From contig NZ_VCCH02000023.1 of NCBI RefSeq assembly GCF_005938675.2, forward strand, positions 1 to 64,000: a DNA stretch of 64,000 bases, in the 5' to 3' direction. The translations under genes and the position numbers were made by a program. The stretch comes from Mycobacterium sp. KBS0706. GTDB lineage: Bacteria; Pseudomonadota; Alphaproteobacteria; DSM-16000; Inquilinaceae. Below the pieces are notes generated by a model. It worked only from the letters and a program-made list of their open reading frames with translations, ran no database searches and was not told the origin of the DNA. Within the stretch, counting starts at the first letter, position 1. Each line of letters starts with the position of its first letter. Below, in pieces: positions 39,228 to 46,577 of this stretch.

Positions 39228-39596
39228 AGACGGCGGCCGGGCCGGTGTCACGGGCGGGATTGGGTGCCAGCCGGACGAGCCTGTGACGACAAGCCCGTGA
39301 TCGGGCCCTCACACAAGAGAACCGTCATTGCGAAGAAGCGATGCCGACAGAGCCATCCATACCTCCGATGCTGCGGCCCTGGATGGCTTTGCTCCGCGCC
39401 GCGGCCGGAGCGATCAAGGCCACTCCAACATGGCGAGCCGGCTGAGTTACAGCAAATAGCGTTCCGGCCTCCCATCTCCATCGAGCGACTGCGCTGGCGA
39501 GGCGGCACCTTCCAATTGATTTTTCGGGCGCGAGAGGCGTAGTTGGTGCGTTGCAGCCGTCGCTTCGACACGTCCCGATACAGAACACAAATTGGC
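39228..39596. other. Intergenic region with dispersed palindromic repeat
   Basis: No gene was recognised in these 369 bp. A repeat of the type CGTCATTGCGA...AGCCATCCA occupies about 39322-39395, with perfect arms AGCCATCCA (39351-39359) and TGGATGGCT (39380-39388). The rest presumably holds the promoter of the heptosyltransferase gene. Confidence 0.55.
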
Positions 39597-40643
39597 ATGG
39601 CCAAAAACCGCATTCTTGTGATCCAGGCCCGCAATCTGGGAGATGCGGTCATCCAGACAGGCCTGATAGAAGCGCTGGGGCGCTCGGAGCCGAGCGCGGA
39701 GATTTCCGTCCTCACCCGTCCGCAGTTCCGTGAGCTCTATTCCAGCAACCCGTTGATTTCGGAGATCTTCTACGCGTCGTTCCCGATGGGCACCGCCAAG
39801 AATTTTGGGTTCAACGCCGCGATGAAACTCGCTTGGACCGTGGCAGGGCTCTGGCCGAAGCGCTTCGACCGGGTGGTCAATGTCGTGGGCGACTTTAGGG
39901 AAAATTTGCTTGGATGGGCGATCTCGCCCTCCGGAAATACCAGCATCACCTGGGGGCACGGTCATCCCCTGGCAAAGATTGTCCGGACCGGCGGCGAGAA
40001 ATTCGTCCGGCACCTGATCGCTGCGCCTGCCAATGATCCAAGCAGCTATTCATCGATCCAACGCGTCGCGACGGCTCTGGGCGCGACGGTGCCGGCGCAT
40101 TCCCGATTGTACGACGCTGCCGGCAAGCCATATGCCCATCGCCCCGGTAGCGACAGGATCGGCATTCAGCCGACAGCAAGCCAGGAATGCAAGCTATGGC
40201 CCCAGGAGCACTGGCGCGCGTTGATCGCCAAGATCCGGGCCAGCGGCCTGAGGGTGGTGGTATTCGGTGCGCCGTCGGATCGGAGCTATCTGGAGGGGTG
40301 TTTACCGGACGGCGACGATGCGGGCATCGAGATCGTCGCGGGGCCGCTGGCCGAATTTTTTCGCAGCCTGGAAGATGTCAGGGTTCTGATCGGTCTCGAT
40401 AGTTTCGGGGTACATACGGCCCACGCGATCGGCACTCCAGCGATCATGATCTATGGCTCGAATATTACAACTGTTTGGACCCCTCCTGGGACGATAGTGG
40501 TGAGCAACGCCAGGCCGCCATCCTGCTACCCGTGCCTAAACAAGCCGACTTGTACTGGAGAGAGCAATCCTTATTCTTGTATCCGGGAAATCCCGCTTGC
40601 TGCAGTTACGAAACATTTGAAAGATTTTGGTGTTGCTGGTTGA
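39597..40643 (+). CDS. Glycosyltransferase family 9 (heptosyltransferase)
   Basis: A 348-residue GT9 protein with the two Rossmann domains of ADP-heptose:LPS heptosyltransferases. The N-terminal RILVIQARNLGDAVIQTGLI provides the acceptor-side domain. The C-terminal domain shows GIQPTASQECKLWPQEHW and GLDSFGVHTAHAIGTPAIMIYG, where Asp and the following His-containing helix bind the sugar nucleotide. It probably adds heptose to the lipopolysaccharide core at the inner membrane. Codon use is richer in A/T than in neighbouring housekeeping genes, as is common in surface polysaccharide loci. The heptose-precursor genes lie 1.5 kb downstream. Confidence 0.85.
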   Translation: MAKNRILVIQARNLGDAVIQTGLIEALGRSEPSAEISVLTRPQFRELYSSNPLISEIFYASFPMGTAKNFGFNAAMKLAWTVAGLWPKRFDRVVNVVGDFRENLLGWAISPSGNTSITWGHGHPLAKIVRTGGEKFVRHLIAAPANDPSSYSSIQRVATALGATVPAHSRLYDAAGKPYAHRPGSDRIGIQPTASQECKLWPQEHWRALIAKIRASGLRVVVFGAPSDRSYLEGCLPDGDDAGIEIVAGPLAEFFRSLEDVRVLIGLDSFGVHTAHAIGTPAIMIYGSNITTVWTPPGTIVVSNARPPSCYPCLNKPTCTGESNPYSCIREIPLAAVTKHLKDFGVAG

Positions 40644-40949
40644 CGGCCCGCGAGTCAGATCGGATCTTATTCGCGTTCAAAAGCGTCTGGTCGAGCACCG
40701 GGACTGTCAGGATCGGGTCAAGCCCGAGGAAGCGGCAGAAGCGCCGATCAGTGCGTAGGGCCCACGGCTACCGGACCCTCTCGACCGGCGGCGCGGCATC
40801 AGCGCGGCCTTGATCTGCCCCGCCTCGAGCCGTGCACCGCGGTCCATCCGCTGTTTACAATCCGGCGGCCACTGGTATCGTTCCGGACCATCGAGTGCTC
40901 GGTTGCTCTGGGTATCGTGTCCGAAATTCGAGGAATGGGGGATAGCAAT
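40644..40949. other. Intergenic region
   Basis: No gene was supported in these 306 bp. A fragment CGGGTCAAGCCCG (40714-40726) recalls the dispersed repeat at 27504-27594. A G/C-rich middle part has no preserved reading frame. Confidence 0.45.
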
Positions 40950-41600
40950 ATGAAGCAAAGACTCAAGGAAATCGCTCGATTGTCCCTGGTTCCGCTGCTG
41001 TATCGGTATCCGCCGTCGTGTTTGGCCCCGGAGCGGCTATACCTGTATCTGCATTACCTGATCGAACACAAAGATGTACCGGGAGACATCGTGGAAATTG
41101 GCTGCGCCATGGGCGGGACGGCGGCCGTGGCGCGAAATATGATCAGGCGGCTGGGAATCAACAAAAAATATTCCTGCTACGACACGTTCGACGGGTTCGT
41201 CGAGCAGCAGTTTACCCGCGACGTAGGGCTGGGAACGCCGACCCGCAACCGGTACATGTTCTCCGGCAGTTCGCAGCGGCTGGTCGCGAAGATCCTGCGG
41301 CGCCACAATGCCGGGGACGTCTCGCTGATCCAGGGCGACATCACCACGATCCCGGACAGCAAGCTGCCGGCATCCTGCTCGGTCGTGCTGCTCGACATCG
41401 ACCTCGCGGAGCCGACCTATCAAACGCTGAAGCGCTTCTGGCCGCGGGTTGCCCCGGGCGGCGTCATCCTGGTGGATGATTGCCCGGAAGAGCACGATTG
41501 GAAGGCCCGGATCGGCTTTAGCCGATTCTGCCAGGAGGCCGGCCTGCCGGAGCAGTATCGCCATGGCATGGGCATACTGATCAAGGGCACGACACATTGA
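40950..41600 (+). CDS. TylF/MycF-like methyltransferase
   Basis: A 216-residue SAM-dependent methyltransferase of the TylF/MycF (macrocin O-methyltransferase) type. It shows VEIGCAMGGTAAVARN (SAM loop, about 49-64), YDTFDGF (about 80-86), a metal-site-like VVLLDIDLAEPTY and VILVDDCPEEHDW. Such enzymes methylate sugar hydroxyls. In this setting, decoration of a lipopolysaccharide or capsule sugar is likely. The ATG at 40950 follows GGGGGA; an ATG 15 bp upstream is an alternative. Confidence 0.8.
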   Translation: MKQRLKEIARLSLVPLLYRYPPSCLAPERLYLYLHYLIEHKDVPGDIVEIGCAMGGTAAVARNMIRRLGINKKYSCYDTFDGFVEQQFTRDVGLGTPTRNRYMFSGSSQRLVAKILRRHNAGDVSLIQGDITTIPDSKLPASCSVVLLDIDLAEPTYQTLKRFWPRVAPGGVILVDDCPEEHDWKARIGFSRFCQEAGLPEQYRHGMGILIKGTTH

Positions 41601-42165
41601 TACTCCGATAGTCTGGCCAGGCCGCGTGCCGCTGCGCTCGGGGTATCGAGCCGGCGGCATCGCATCCCGCCGCCAGGCCGGGCCGGCTACCGGATTCACG
41701 CATCTCATCCGCACACGCGTTGGACATGTTGTCCGACCTCTCCCGCAAGCGGAGAGGCAATCCATATGCCCGCCGCCGGTGTCGCCGATCGATGTGTGAA
41801 TGCCGTAGACCAGGCACGGAAGGTGCCGGGAAGAGATGCGCGCCCGGGTCCGGATACCCGCGGACCAAGCCCGAAGCCGGCGTCAGCCCTTCTCGGCCGG
41901 CGCGGGTGTTCCCGGCCGTGCTGCCGCTCAGCGCTATGCGAGCCTGATCGACCCTCGTAGAATGCTGTTCAAACTTCGGCACATGTGGGTCCGGTGGCGC
42001 ACACCGCGCGCCTTGTGAGTCGGACAGGGTCAAAATGAGCAGACGAACCGCCTATCTGTCGTCCACAGCGTCGGGCTTCCCGGCCTCCCTCGCTTCGCCT
42101 CGGAGCTTCTCCATGACGTCGCTTCGGGCGTTGCTGAAGGCGACCTGGCCTGTCGGAACCGCTTC
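41601..42165. other. Long intergenic region, possibly a decayed gene
   Basis: These 565 bp lack a convincing intact gene. From about 42019 to 42165 the frame of the downstream gmhB stays open without any ATG, GTG or TTG, and its codons strongly favour G or C in third position. Upstream of its TGA (42016-42018) the same frame continues with MLFKLRHMWVRWRTPRAL. This looks like a broken coding remnant. Confidence 0.4.
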
Positions 42166-42720
42166 GTGATTTCCGAGGACGACCGATCCGCAACTCGGCC
42201 GATGGCGCTGCTCGACCGCGACGGCGTACTGAACCGGGACAGCGGCTACCCATTCAGACCGGTGGATATCGTTTGGATCGAAGGGGCGCTCGACGCCCTC
42301 GTCCGCCTGCGCCAAGCCGGCTATCGCGTGGTCGTTGTCACCAATCAGTCGGGGATCGCCCGTGGCTTTTATCGCGAGGCTGATCTACTGGCCCTGAACC
42401 GTTGGATGGACGGAGTGATTCGCGCCCACGGCGGCGCGATCGCGTCCTTTTACTATTGCCCTTTCCATCCCGAAGCCACCGTCCAGGCCTATCGTCGAGA
42501 CCATCCTGACCGCAAGCCGAGACCGGGAATGCTCCTGAAAGCACTTTCCGACTATCCGACCGATATCGAACGATCGCTGATGATCGGCGATCGGGATAGT
42601 GACATGGAGGCGGCCGCGGCGGCGGGCGTGCGGGGCTTCAAGTTCACCGGGGGCAATCTTGACCACTTCGTTGCCCAGTGCCTTGAAACCCGGCAATCGT
42701 CACGGATCGGGGACGACTGA
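42166..42720 (+). CDS. gmhB: D-glycero-D-manno-heptose-1,7-bisphosphate 7-phosphatase (HAD family)
   Basis: A 184-residue HAD phosphatase of the HisB-N/GmhB type. The nucleophile pair is in LLDRDGVLN (Asp17, Asp19), followed by VVTNQSG (about 58-64), KPRPGML with the conserved lysine, and IGDRDSDMEAA. It removes the 7-phosphate in ADP-heptose synthesis. The usual zinc loop C-x-H ... C-x-C is partly lost: CPFHP is present, but the second pair reads DHPDRKP. The start is GTG 42166 or ATG 42202; neither has a clear ribosome-binding site. The neighbouring isomerase, hldE and hldD support the pathway. Confidence 0.85.
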   Translation: MISEDDRSATRPMALLDRDGVLNRDSGYPFRPVDIVWIEGALDALVRLRQAGYRVVVVTNQSGIARGFYREADLLALNRWMDGVIRAHGGAIASFYYCPFHPEATVQAYRRDHPDRKPRPGMLLKALSDYPTDIERSLMIGDRDSDMEAAAAAGVRGFKFTGGNLDHFVAQCLETRQSSRIGDD

Positions 42721-42854
42721 CGACACGCCCTCCGGGCCGCAGCCGCTGGGGCCACCCTGACCTCGATCCAGGCGGTGGTCGCATCGTCATCGCGCTCGCC
42801 TGCCCTGCCCGATTCAGATAGAAGGTCCCGCCGAAGGACATTTCAGATCGGACA

Positions 42855-44024
42855 TTGGCAGTGATCGAGTCGCCGCTCTCGCTTTATGCGGATCTCATGG
42901 GTGAGGTTCTTCTGCCGTTCTGGTCCACGGAGGGCTTCGCAACCAGACAGCAGATGTTTTGCGAGCGCCTTGATTTCGCCGGGCGTCCGATCGACGACGT
43001 GCCGCACCGTGCCATGGTGCAGGCGCGCCAGATCTTCGTCTTCAGCCATGCGGCGCTTGTCGGGGTGTTTCCCGCCGGCGCCGAACCGGCGATGCGGGCG
43101 CTCGACGGGCTGCTGAACCGGTTCTGCGACGATGGCGATCTGCGGGACGGCGTGCCGTTCTCGGTCTCGTCCTCCGGAAAGGTGATCTCGGCAACCCGAG
43201 ACAGTTACACCCACGCGTTCATGCTGTTCGCTCTGGCGGCGGCCTATCGCCTGACCGGTGAGCCGCGGCTGCGGCGTGCAATCGACCAGACGGTGGCGTT
43301 CGTCGATCGACGGCTCATCGACGAACGACATTTCGGCCTTCACGATCGCCATCCGGATCCAAGCGGATTGAAATCGCAGAATCCGCTGATGCATCTGCTC
43401 GAAGCCTATCTCGCACTCCACGAGGCCCTGCCGGAAGGTCCGTTCCTCGACCGGGCGGGGACCATCGTGGCGCATTTCGGCGCCAAGCTGTTTCAAGACG
43501 AGCCGGGCATCCTCCTGGAGCACTACGATGCTGACTGGTCGTCGCTGCCAGGCGAGCCTGCGGGGCAATTCTTCGAACCTGGCCATCAGTTCGAATGGGC
43601 TTGGCTGTTGCAGTGGTACGGCGCCCTCTCAGGGACGGATCAGAGTATGTTTGCAGACCGGCTGTGGCAGGCCGCCGGCCGCCATGGCATGACCGCAGAC
43701 GGCCTGTGCTTCGACGAGGTCGGCATTGACCTCAGGCCGCGCAAGCTATCGCACCGCCTCTGGCCTCACGCCGAAGGGGCCAAGGCCGCTGCCGTTCGTC
43801 ATGCTTCAGGTGATCCTCGCGCCGCAGACGTGGCTGCAGCGATGGTTGGCGCCCTCACCAAAACGTTCCTCAATCGCCCGTTCCCCGCTGGCTGGATCGA
43901 CCGCGTCGACCCGGACGGCCGAGCGCTGACCGATTTCGTTCCGGCGAGCAGTCTGTATCATCTGTATTCGGCATTTTCCGAATTGTCCCGACACAGTAGA
44001 GATGACAGCGCCTCCGGCGAATGA
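42855..44024 (+). CDS. AGE-family (N-acylglucosamine 2-epimerase) sugar epimerase/isomerase
   Basis: A 389-residue (alpha/alpha)6-barrel protein of the N-acylglucosamine 2-epimerase family, which includes mannose and sulfoquinovose aldose-ketose isomerases. Visible are RQIFVFSHAA (about 57-66), SRDSYTHAFMLFALAA-like ATRDSYTHAF, NPLMHLLEAYLAL and the catalytic-type EPGHQFEWAWLL (about 240-251), with LWPHAEGAKAA near 300. The conserved histidines that serve as acid/base are in the last two motifs. It lies between gmhB and hldE, where a sedoheptulose-7-phosphate isomerase (GmhA) gene would be expected. The start is uncertain: TTG 42855 or GTG 42861. Confidence 0.83.
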   Translation: MAVIESPLSLYADLMGEVLLPFWSTEGFATRQQMFCERLDFAGRPIDDVPHRAMVQARQIFVFSHAALVGVFPAGAEPAMRALDGLLNRFCDDGDLRDGVPFSVSSSGKVISATRDSYTHAFMLFALAAAYRLTGEPRLRRAIDQTVAFVDRRLIDERHFGLHDRHPDPSGLKSQNPLMHLLEAYLALHEALPEGPFLDRAGTIVAHFGAKLFQDEPGILLEHYDADWSSLPGEPAGQFFEPGHQFEWAWLLQWYGALSGTDQSMFADRLWQAAGRHGMTADGLCFDEVGIDLRPRKLSHRLWPHAEGAKAAAVRHASGDPRAADVAAAMVGALTKTFLNRPFPAGWIDRVDPDGRALTDFVPASSLYHLYSAFSELSRHSRDDSASGE

Positions 44025-44057
44025 ATCCGGCCTTGAGAGTGTGGGAGCAGGCGAGGA

Positions 44058-45539
44058 ATGCAGGGTATTAGTGAGAGGTTCGCGGCCGCCCGGGTTGCAG
44101 TGGTCGGAGACCTCATGCTCGACGTCTACATCGAGGGCGAGGTTCACCGAGTCTCGCCTGAAGCGCCCGTGCCGGTGGTTCGGCTCACGTCGGAGCGCGC
44201 AGTGCCGGGCGGCGCCGCCAATGTCGCCGCCAATATCGCCTCGCTCGGCGGAACGGTCACCCTCGTCGGTGTCGCCGGCCGGGACAGCGCCTTCGCTCAG
44301 CTCTCCGAGCAGCTCCAGCGGGTGGGACGGGTCGATCTTTCGACAACCGTATTCGACGACAGCCGCGGCACGATAACGAAGACGCGTCTTCTCGGCCATC
44401 GCCAGCAGATCGCCCGGATCGATCGGGAGACCCTCCGGCCGGTTGCGCCGGAGATCGAGACGCAACTGATTGAGCGCGCCTGCGCAGCCATTGACAGCTG
44501 CGACATCGTCATCCTGTCGGACTATGGCAAGGGTGTGCTCACGGATATGGTGCTGCAGCGTACGCTCGCTTATGCCCAGGCGGTCGGCAAGCGCGTGGTG
44601 GTCGATCCCAAGCGGCGCGATTTGTCGGCTTATCGTGGCGCCTCGATCATCACGCCGAACCGTGCTGAGCTCGCACTCGCCACCGGGCGACCATGCGAAA
44701 CCGACGAGGAGGCCGAAGCGGCCGCGCGGCTTGCCCACGAGATCTGCGACGCCGACGTGCTTCTGACGCGCTCGGAGAAGGGCATGTCCTATTTTGCGCG
44801 ATCGGGCGACCCGATCCACTTGGCGACGATCGCTCGTGAGGTGTTCGACGTATCCGGCGCTGGCGACACCGTGGTCGCCGTGCTCGGTGCCGCACTCGCA
44901 GCGGGTTTCCCGCTCGCGGAGGCAATGAATGCCTCGAATCATGCCGCCGGCCTCGTCGTGGCCAAGCTCGGCACGGCCACTGTGTCGTGCGAGGAGCTCG
45001 TCCTGGCGCTGCACGGCGGCGCCCAGGCCCTCGACGTCGAGGACGGCCGCTTGGTGGCGCTGGACGAGTTGATGCGGATACGCGCGTTCTGGCGAGCCAA
45101 CAACCTCACCGTCGGCATCGCCAACGGCTGCTTCGATCTGATCCATCCCGGCCACGTCTCGCTGATCCGCCAAGCGGCCGCGGCCTGCGACCGGCTTGTG
45201 ATGGCGCTCAACACCGACGCCTCGGTGCAGCGCCTCAAGGGGCCAACCAGGCCGGTTCAGGCCGAGATAGCGCGGGCGGAGGTGATGGGCGCGCTGAAGG
45301 GAGTCGCCGCGGTGGTGCTGTTCGACGAGGACACACCCTACGAGCTTATCAAGGCGCTGCGCCCGGACGTGCTGGTCAAGGGAGCGGACTATACAGAGGA
45401 ACTGGTGATCGGCGCGGATATCGTACGGGCAGGCGGCGGCACGGTGCTCCTGGCGGCGCTGACCCCCGGCCAGTCGACCACGAGGCTGATATCGCAACGG
45501 CCCGCGACGGTGGCCACCCACGGAGACAAGCCATCATGA
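44058..45539 (+). CDS. hldE: Bifunctional heptose-7-phosphate kinase / heptose-1-phosphate adenylyltransferase
   Basis: A 493-residue fusion enzyme. Residues about 1-320 are a PfkB-type kinase (GGAANVAANIASLGG near 53, and the catalytic DVSGAGDTVVAVLG near 268) that phosphorylates D-glycero-D-manno-heptose 7-phosphate at C1. Residues about 345-480 are a cytidylyltransferase-like domain (GCFDLIHPGHVSLI with HxGH, then NTDASVQRLKG) that makes the ADP-sugar. The start is 33 bp after the AGE gene and the stop overlaps hldD (ATGA). Product and context match lipopolysaccharide core heptose synthesis. Confidence 0.96.
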   Translation: MQGISERFAAARVAVVGDLMLDVYIEGEVHRVSPEAPVPVVRLTSERAVPGGAANVAANIASLGGTVTLVGVAGRDSAFAQLSEQLQRVGRVDLSTTVFDDSRGTITKTRLLGHRQQIARIDRETLRPVAPEIETQLIERACAAIDSCDIVILSDYGKGVLTDMVLQRTLAYAQAVGKRVVVDPKRRDLSAYRGASIITPNRAELALATGRPCETDEEAEAAARLAHEICDADVLLTRSEKGMSYFARSGDPIHLATIAREVFDVSGAGDTVVAVLGAALAAGFPLAEAMNASNHAAGLVVAKLGTATVSCEELVLALHGGAQALDVEDGRLVALDELMRIRAFWRANNLTVGIANGCFDLIHPGHVSLIRQAAAACDRLVMALNTDASVQRLKGPTRPVQAEIARAEVMGALKGVAAVVLFDEDTPYELIKALRPDVLVKGADYTEELVIGADIVRAGGGTVLLAALTPGQSTTRLISQRPATVATHGDKPS

Positions 45540-46516
45540 TCATCTTGACCGGCGGCGCGGGCTTCATCGGCTCCAACATCGCCGCCGACCTCAACGAAGC
45601 CGGCCGGACCGACATCGTTATTGCCGACGCGCTCGGGACCGATGCCAAATGGCGCAATATTGCCAAGCGACGCTTCTCGGACATCATCTTCCCCGACGAG
45701 ATCGAGCCGTTCCTGGCCGGGCGCTCCGGTGTCGAGGCGGTGATCCATATGGGAGCGAATTCGTCGACCACCGCGACCGATGCCGATGAGATCGTGCGCT
45801 CGAACTTCCGGCTCTCGACCCGGCTTTGGAACTGGTGCACCCGGACCCGCACGCCGCTGATCTACGCCTCCTCGGCGGCGACCTATGGCGACGGCTCTGC
45901 CGGCTTCGTCGACGACGACAGCGACGAGGCGCTGGGCCGCCTGCAGCCCATGAATCTTTATGGCTGGTCCAAGCACACTTTCGATTGCTGGGCACTTGAG
46001 CGCGCCCGCCGTGGCGACGCTCCTCCGCAATGGGCCGGGCTCAAGTTCTTCAATGTCTATGGCCCTAACGAGTCTCACAAGGGCGACATGCAGAGCCTCG
46101 TCGCGAAGAACACCCAGTCGATCGCGGAGGGGAAGACCATCCGGATGTTCAAGTCGCACAAAGAGGGCTTTGGCGACGGTGAGCAGTCGCGGGATTTTGT
46201 CTATGTCAAGGACTGCACGGCAGTGATTTCTTGGCTTCTGGCCAACCCGATGACCTGCGGGCTATTCAATCTCGGCACCGGCAAGGCCCGCTCGTTCCGG
46301 GATCTGATGCTTGCTGTCGGTGGTGCGCTCGGGCAGCCGGTCGCATTCGACTATGTCGACATGCCGGTCGCGATCCGGGCACAGTACCAATACTTCACCC
46401 AAGCTGAGATGACGAAGCTTCGCCGAGCCGGCTACCAAGCGCCGTTCCACACGCTCGAGGATGGCGTGCGAGACTACGTGCAGGGCTACCTGACGAAGGC
46501 CGACCGGTACCGCTAA
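45536..46516 (+). CDS. hldD: ADP-L-glycero-D-manno-heptose 6-epimerase
   Basis: A 326-residue extended SDR. It has the NADP-binding GGAGFIGSN (6-14), the catalytic Tyr-x3-Lys in YGWSKHTFD (about 141-149) and the family segments NVYGPNESHKGDMQS and DFVYVKDC. It converts ADP-D-glycero- to ADP-L-glycero-D-manno-heptose, the last step before heptosyltransfer. Translation is coupled to hldE by a 4-bp overlap. Confidence 0.95.
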   Translation: MIILTGGAGFIGSNIAADLNEAGRTDIVIADALGTDAKWRNIAKRRFSDIIFPDEIEPFLAGRSGVEAVIHMGANSSTTATDADEIVRSNFRLSTRLWNWCTRTRTPLIYASSAATYGDGSAGFVDDDSDEALGRLQPMNLYGWSKHTFDCWALERARRGDAPPQWAGLKFFNVYGPNESHKGDMQSLVAKNTQSIAEGKTIRMFKSHKEGFGDGEQSRDFVYVKDCTAVISWLLANPMTCGLFNLGTGKARSFRDLMLAVGGALGQPVAFDYVDMPVAIRAQYQYFTQAEMTKLRRAGYQAPFHTLEDGVRDYVQGYLTKADRYR

Positions 46517-46577
46517 TGCCGCACGGCCTCCTCGGCCGCCTCTTGGGCGGTCGGGGCCGAGGTGGCGGGCGCCCCTG

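Follow-up and report, generated by a model that had tools for sequence, protein, structure and literature searches.

In the 64,000-nucleotide stretch of DNA analysed here (the window; positions 1 to 64,000 of contig NZ_VCCH02000023.1 of Mycobacterium sp. KBS0706, whose GTDB lineage lies in the Alphaproteobacteria, Inquilinaceae), a gene for an AGE-family isomerase stands between gmhB and hldE in a block for ADP-L-glycero-D-manno-heptose biosynthesis. Judging from its sequence and setting, we consider it likely that the encoded protein is the first enzyme of the ADP-heptose pathway, that is, a non-homologous replacement of GmhA. This reading, which a first-pass annotation of the window had put forward, gains support from the lack of GmhA in the genome, the recurrent linkage of AGE genes to heptose genes in both ADP- and GDP-heptose loci, the complementary distribution of AGE and GmhA, and the joint arrival of the genes on an island. 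We infer the substrate, sedoheptulose 7-phosphate, from genome context and distribution. With rather less assurance, we also favour the broader proposal that an AGE-barrel sedoheptulose 7-phosphate isomerase has repeatedly replaced the zinc-dependent GmhA in alphaproteobacterial ADP- and GDP-heptose loci, and that it probably shares ancestry, or is interchangeable, with AGE-type mannose 6-phosphate isomerases.

The gene block and the missing GmhA

The genes gmhB, AGE, hldE and hldD form a single tight run on one strand, with all frames open (Table 1). The AGE gene is separated from hldE by 33 bp, while hldE and hldD share 4 bp in an ATGA overlap. The AGE open reading frame encodes 389 aa from a TTG codon at 42855; its start is uncertain, GTG at 42861 and ATG at 42897 being the alternatives. 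The annotated gene order, an AGE-family gene between gmhB and hldE with hldD present, is borne out by matches to PF07221 (AGE), TIGR02198 (HldE) and TIGR02197 (HldD) and by GmhB-like scores; HldE, GmhB and HldD of the ADP-L-glycero-D-manno-heptose pathway are thus all present in the window. The kinase domain of HldE passes the curated NCBIfam cut-off and the adenylyltransferase domain falls slightly below it (TIGR02199, 170.8 bits); the full-length model PRK11316 gives 471.5 bits, below its cut-off of 521. HldE carries LTPGQSTTR at residue 468, which fits the (F/L)xxGxSTT-R motif described in one study for functional NDP-heptose nucleotidyltransferases (PMC11461863).

No GmhA was found in the 8.97-Mb source genome (99.74% complete, 9.8% contamination): the best match to the GmhA model TIGR00441 reached 26.5 bits against a cut-off of 209.45, and the position of the AGE gene was not among the matches. 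The AGE protein itself has no SIS domain, its only Pfam match being PF07221 and its NCBIfam matches being AGE-family models only. A search with the SIS_2 profile returned five places in the genome. Read from their translations, these encode three SIS proteins of another type, of about 250-270 aa, an RpiR-like regulator and a MurQ-like protein, so a GmhA hidden among the SIS proteins was rejected and the annotated absence of GmhA held. Relaxing the GmhA-model search to E values as high as 10 still did not bring up any of the three SIS proteins, and we recognised no heptose gene in the 3.4-kb stretches read around them. Contamination as the cause of the missing gmhA was ruled out by the TPI gene on the window contig: it is single-copy in the genome and 92-95% identical to the TPI of five same-genus genomes, indicating that the contig is native to the genus. 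No other candidate for the first step was found in the genome, which is why we do not favour the alternative that the AGE gene makes a further heptose variant.

The presence of three other SIS_2 proteins would also fit a different role for the AGE protein, that of a broad phospho-sugar isomerase or 2-epimerase acting on a later heptose intermediate and yielding, e.g., a gluco-heptose, with sedoheptulose 7-phosphate isomerised by a non-GmhA SIS protein or by no enzyme. Many AGE enzymes are indeed 2-epimerases, and cellobiose, glucose and N-acetylglucosamine (GlcNAc) 2-epimerases are among the nearest folds. However, the three SIS proteins belong to a different type, unmatched by the GmhA model and without a recognised heptose gene nearby, and the complementary distribution of AGE and GmhA described below would be unexpected for an extra later step; we therefore regard this role as improbable.

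AGE genes beside heptose genes in other genomes

We examined 136 AGE-bearing loci, two of which are repeats of source-genome places. Eighty came from named genomes (the best 80 of 506 by similarity to AGE alone), and the remainder were drawn from relatives and from a class-wide sample; neighbouring genes were not used in choosing any locus. In 11 distinct loci (the window, L017, L020, L021, L024, L028, L076, L136, L137, L142 and L158), the AGE gene has HldE or HldD close by; in L020 and L021 the distance to HldE is 3-4 kb. It adjoins the GDP-heptose enzymes HddC and GmhB in nine loci (L016, L022, L032, L042, L064, L092, L114, L115 and L117), three of which (L016, L092 and L117) also have HddA, and stands next to GmhB alone in three (L050, L053 and the divergent L093). 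The HddA of Rhizobium lusitanum scores 408 bits with NF049969, below the strict cut-off of 600. Hosts include R. lusitanum, Shinella, Novosphingobium, Paracoccus ravus, Saccharibacter, Aquabacter and Caulobacter. As to how widely the gene order occurs, a question that the first-pass annotation had raised, AGE-heptose linkage is thus found in 23 loci scattered over the Alphaproteobacteria.

In the nine GDP-heptose loci, HddC and GmhB are fused. In the three fusions tested (L016:6655-7923, L022:6739-7962 and L092:6660-7862), a protein of about 400-425 aa combines nucleotidyltransferase and phosphatase, and hidden Markov models confirmed both halves.

At the threshold used, no GmhA was found in any of the 136 AGE loci. 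The window carries the ADP branch (HldE and HldD), in contrast to the GDP-heptose loci with HddA, HddC and GmhB. The enzyme that the two pathways share and that neither kind of locus contains is GmhA. The same holds at the level of whole genomes, where a convincing GmhA is absent from 22 of the 23 with a heptose-linked AGE. Among the 15 named genomes, GmhA-model matches do not exceed 35 bits in 14, and the remaining one (G045) has a 51-bit match that Pfam describes as a marginal SIS_2 domain; among the source genome and seven class-sample genomes, 7/8 have no GmhA match at E up to 1e-8.

That AGE always stands beside heptose genes in GmhA-less genomes was ruled out by the many loci without a visible link, where AGE lies by, e.g., genes of the tryptophan pathway or a relative of ornithine cyclodeaminase. 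An ornithine cyclodeaminase/mu-crystallin relative directly precedes AGE in two families (L124:7006-7965 and L141:6854-7963), a pairing without an obvious explanation.

Distribution of AGE and GmhA in Alphaproteobacteria

The two isomerases were compared in a sample of 289 Alphaproteobacteria of at least 90% completeness. Genomes were scored GmhA-positive at E below 1e-38, with the addition of one partial gene (G236, a 117-bit match beside hldE at a contig end), and AGE-positive from 200 bits upwards; weaker AGE matches, of 77 to 137 bits, did not count. HldE is present in 160 genomes, of which 116 have GmhA and 44 do not. A strong AGE occurs in 28/44 of the HldE-positive genomes without GmhA vs 7/116 of those with it (Fisher p 8e-14, a value that ignores kinship), and in 6/129 genomes without HldE. 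With a looser GmhA threshold, the corresponding counts among HldE-positive genomes are 26/38 GmhA-less and 9/122 GmhA-bearing.

The 28 genomes with HldE and AGE but without GmhA are spread over 15 families. Counting HldE-positive members only, 14 families hold both GmhA states (13 from the family comparison, plus f95 from the HldE and GmhA search results). Half of them (f1, f10, f15, f30, f47, f80 and f119) have AGE in every GmhA-less member, and among the 11 GmhA-bearing members of these seven families AGE occurs in one only (G009). In at least 52 of the 116 genomes with both enzymes, gmhA and hldE are no more than 400 bp apart; this hldE-neighbouring slot is filled by AGE in the window and in G057, G167, G247 and G315.

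The heptose block as an island

The block lies on an island (Table 1) whose GC content is ~0.60-0.67, compared with ~0.67-0.74 in the flanks. The flanks, up to 39.26 kb and from 46.56 kb, are conserved at 88% and 91-92% in two same-genus genomes (L171 of G004 and L172 of G003), where contiguous sequence between them holds other DNA instead of the heptose block. A search of five same-genus genomes found no HldE at E up to 1e-60 and no GmhA at E up to 1e-8. The AGE matches in these five genomes are weak relatives and not of the window type; in three (L100-L102) ManB adjoins AGE, as it does at the second AGE copy of the source genome. Because the block is an island and the sister genomes lack both HldE and GmhA, GmhB, AGE, HldE and HldD must have been acquired together by a genus without GmhA.

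The island site is exchangeable. In G004 (L171 5900-17170), it is occupied by a type I-C CRISPR-Cas locus with Cas1c, Cas7/Csd2, Cas8c/Csd1, Cas5c and Cas3 domains, and in G003 (L172 2825-13142) by ~10 kb of other DNA in which no direct repeats of 28 bases or more were found. Upstream of gmhB on the same strand, the island of the source genome carries genes for a glycosyltransferase of family 9 (GT9) and a TylF-like methyltransferase.

Table 1. Location of the island and its genes in the window, with supporting evidence
Feature	Position	Strand	Evidence
AGE-family (alpha/alpha)6-barrel isomerase, proposed sedoheptulose 7-phosphate isomerase/GmhA substitute	42855..44024	+	PF07221 199.6 bits (cut-off 23.4)
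GmhB-like D,D-heptose 1,7-bisphosphate 7-phosphatase (HAD)	42166..42720	+	PRK08942 150.3 bits, TIGR00213 134.5 bits
hldE, bifunctional heptose 7-phosphate kinase / heptose 1-phosphate adenylyltransferase	44058..45539	+	TIGR02198 360.8 bits, above cut-off
hldD, ADP-L-glycero-D-manno-heptose 6-epimerase	45536..46516	+	TIGR02197 389.4 bits, above cut-off
Glycosyltransferase family 9, heptosyltransferase-like	39543..40643	+	PF01075 62 bits; best NCBIfam matches are heptosyltransferases, all below cut-off
TylF-like methyltransferase, same island	40917..41600	+	PF05711 46 bits
Island	39265..46560		G003 and G004 (sister genomes) lack the block at this site; GC shift

A lower-GC island that sister genomes lack might also be a decayed, non-functional operon with the AGE gene as a passenger, and the scores of GmhB and of the HldE adenylyltransferase domain, slightly below the curated cut-offs, would agree with decay. 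We consider this very unlikely, given that the frames are open and tightly spaced, the catalytic residues are kept, the HldE motif is intact, and the same AGE-heptose pairing recurs in distant genomes.

Fold and conserved residues of the AGE protein

The AlphaFold model of the window AGE protein (mean pLDDT 95) displays the inner helices of an (alpha/alpha)6 barrel. The nearest solved folds are cellobiose 2-epimerase (Z 48.2), D-mannose isomerase (47.7), glucose 2-epimerase (46.8) and YihS (44.0), with GlcNAc 2-epimerase also among them; the Z score of 48 to 3wkf supports the barrel fold. D-mannose isomerase and cellobiose 2-epimerase, which lie at Z 46-48, act on unphosphorylated sugars. The model also resembles, at a greater distance, the AprG barrel (9lfq and 9c9b; Z 26.6), which acts on a longer sugar; the titles of the AprG structure entries name a transaldolase and an octose product. 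In contrast, GmhA occupies the same place in the pathway with an unrelated fold, being described as an SIS-domain protein with zinc (PMC5387315).

Residues R58, H180, H244, E247 and H369 align with the arginine, histidines and glutamate of E. coli YihS and are kept in 22/22 heptose-linked rows; R58, H180, H244 and H369 are invariant in an alignment of 58 sequences. YihS, a sulfoquinovose/mannose isomerase, is an aldose-ketose isomerase that accepts a sugar with an anionic group at C6. It differs from the window protein in its gene neighbourhood, in its overall sequence (~20% identity) and at three further positions, R52, Q59 and R301. These residues, located at or near the N-terminal ends of inner helices in the model, are kept in nearly all of the alphaproteobacterial AGE group and replaced in YihS and in the aligned cellobiose and glucose 2-epimerases. 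Our guess is that R52 and R301, as arginines special to this group, are candidates for phosphate binding.

Mannose-linked relatives in the AGE tree

A FastTree tree was built from 132 of the 136 AGE loci (L094, L105, L095, L103, L104 and L106 were named for removal, and rows of 250 aa or less were also dropped). Rows were labelled as heptose-linked when a heptose gene lay within 3.3 kb; L021 is therefore labelled 'other', its HldE being 4 kb away. The tree splits into two large parts. AGE rows from genomes with HldE and without GmhA number 27 in the part that contains the window and two in the other, one of the latter being the second copy of the source genome; this other part also holds 7/7 ROK-linked and 8/14 ManB-linked rows. 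The window groups with the HldE-linked AGE of Shinella, Saccharibacter and G247 and with four others in an eight-row set with a support of 97.

ManC lies within 5 kb of AGE in 38/136 loci, and ManB stands beside it in 14/132 tree rows. In G141 and G226, ManC directly precedes AGE (L121:6823-7920 and L118:9159-10427), and no mannose 6-phosphate isomerase (PMI) domain of the PF01050 type was found in either genome. These neighbours suggest that the ManC-linked relatives are AGE-type mannose 6-phosphate isomerases, converting fructose 6-phosphate to mannose 6-phosphate. That AGE is the sole PMI across the 32 genomes searched was ruled out, as PF01050 is above the cut-off in 24 of them and weak in G122 and G211. 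PF01238 was found in 0/32 genomes; this model spans just 48 C-terminal residues of type I PMI, so a ManA may have been missed.

The window protein could then itself be a mannose 6-phosphate isomerase that lies by chance in a surface-sugar island, with heptose 7-phosphate coming from another, unrecognised enzyme. The ManC and ManB neighbourhoods, including those of G141 and G226, speak for this explanation. However, the window copy has neither ManC nor ManB in its vicinity, and L117 is the only heptose-linked locus with a ManC within 5 kb. Moreover, the second AGE copy of the source genome sits with ManB and ManC, and the genome has two strong ManC-type PMI domains (PF01050), so the window copy is not needed for mannose 6-phosphate. 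The explanation would also leave the heptose pathway without its first enzyme, and we judge it unlikely, if less so than the other alternatives considered here.

Fructose 6-phosphate and sedoheptulose 7-phosphate have the same configuration at C3 to C5. The copies in GDP-mannose loci belong to the same family as the window protein and have the same conserved active-site residues. The chemistry proposed for them, from ketose-phosphate to manno-aldose-phosphate, is the one proposed for the window protein, while the genes around them indicate mannose 6-phosphate. Most simply, these proteins would form a group of isomerases that turn ketose phosphates into manno-aldose phosphates, acting in some cases on fructose 6-phosphate and in others on sedoheptulose 7-phosphate, and some AGE members may serve both.

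Evidence against the proposed replacement

Several observations weigh against the replacement of GmhA by AGE. One genome, G177, has a GDP-heptose-linked AGE together with a 140-bit GmhA relative, and HldE, GmhA and AGE co-occur in seven genomes of the sample. Most AGE genes in GmhA-less class-sample genomes are not near heptose genes, no AGE is present in the GmhA-less member of the other seven mixed-state families (f95 among them), and 16 of the 44 HldE-positive GmhA-less genomes also lack a strong AGE. In the window, the GmhB scores with PRK08942 and TIGR00213 are slightly below the curated cut-offs. No single 'heptose' AGE clade was found, the 22 heptose-linked rows being scattered over the tree with 14 changes, and no heptose-specific residue was seen either: 0/23 compared positions separate these rows from the ManB- and ROK-linked ones. 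Finally, mannose 6-phosphate isomerisation is the same chemistry on a shorter chain and is probably the true function of other AGE members.

The genomes that lack both enzymes as strong matches are G024, G052, G060, G105, G107, G112, G140, G143, G199, G202, G220, G241, G278, G291, G292 and G293. A further route or incomplete assemblies must therefore exist; assembly gaps, a divergent or partial GmhA (there are weaker matches in G060, G278, G291 and G293), or a further route could each account for these cases.

Proposed pathway and significance

In the proposed pathway, the AGE protein would isomerise sedoheptulose 7-phosphate as the entry step, by AGE-type deprotonation and reprotonation between C1 and C2 via the conserved active-site residues. 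HldE would phosphorylate the product at C1, GmhB would then take off the 7-phosphate, HldE would adenylylate the dephosphorylated heptose, and HldD would invert C6 to give ADP-L-glycero-D-manno-heptose, which the GT9 of the island would perhaps use.

Replacement of an enzyme by a non-homologous one is a known type of event, and the AGE isomerases are a known family; what appears to be new is that an AGE enzyme would act on a heptose phosphate. Among the matches listed in a search of open-licence full texts, judged by title and start of abstract, we found no report of an AGE enzyme as a GmhA substitute; subscription journals and preprints lie outside this search. Two papers regard GmhA both as the shared entry step of heptose biosynthesis and as a target for antibiotics (PMC5387315; PMC11056994). 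According to PMC11461863, Tang et al. predicted the capacity to make heptose across life from homology to the isomerase, kinase, phosphatase and nucleotidyltransferase types already known.

With a second family of isomerases, the gap in the pathway would be accounted for in a large share of the Alphaproteobacteria, where 44/160 HldE-positive genomes lack a strong GmhA. AGE as a putative GmhA substitute is widespread but patchy, and sister AGE genes sit in GDP-mannose loci. If the proposal is true, the AGE superfamily extends to phosphorylated C7 sugars. Genomes scored heptose-negative for a missing GmhA would then make heptose and would be insensitive to GmhA inhibitors, and the expectation of which bacteria make ADP-heptose, a molecule sensed by innate immunity, would change.
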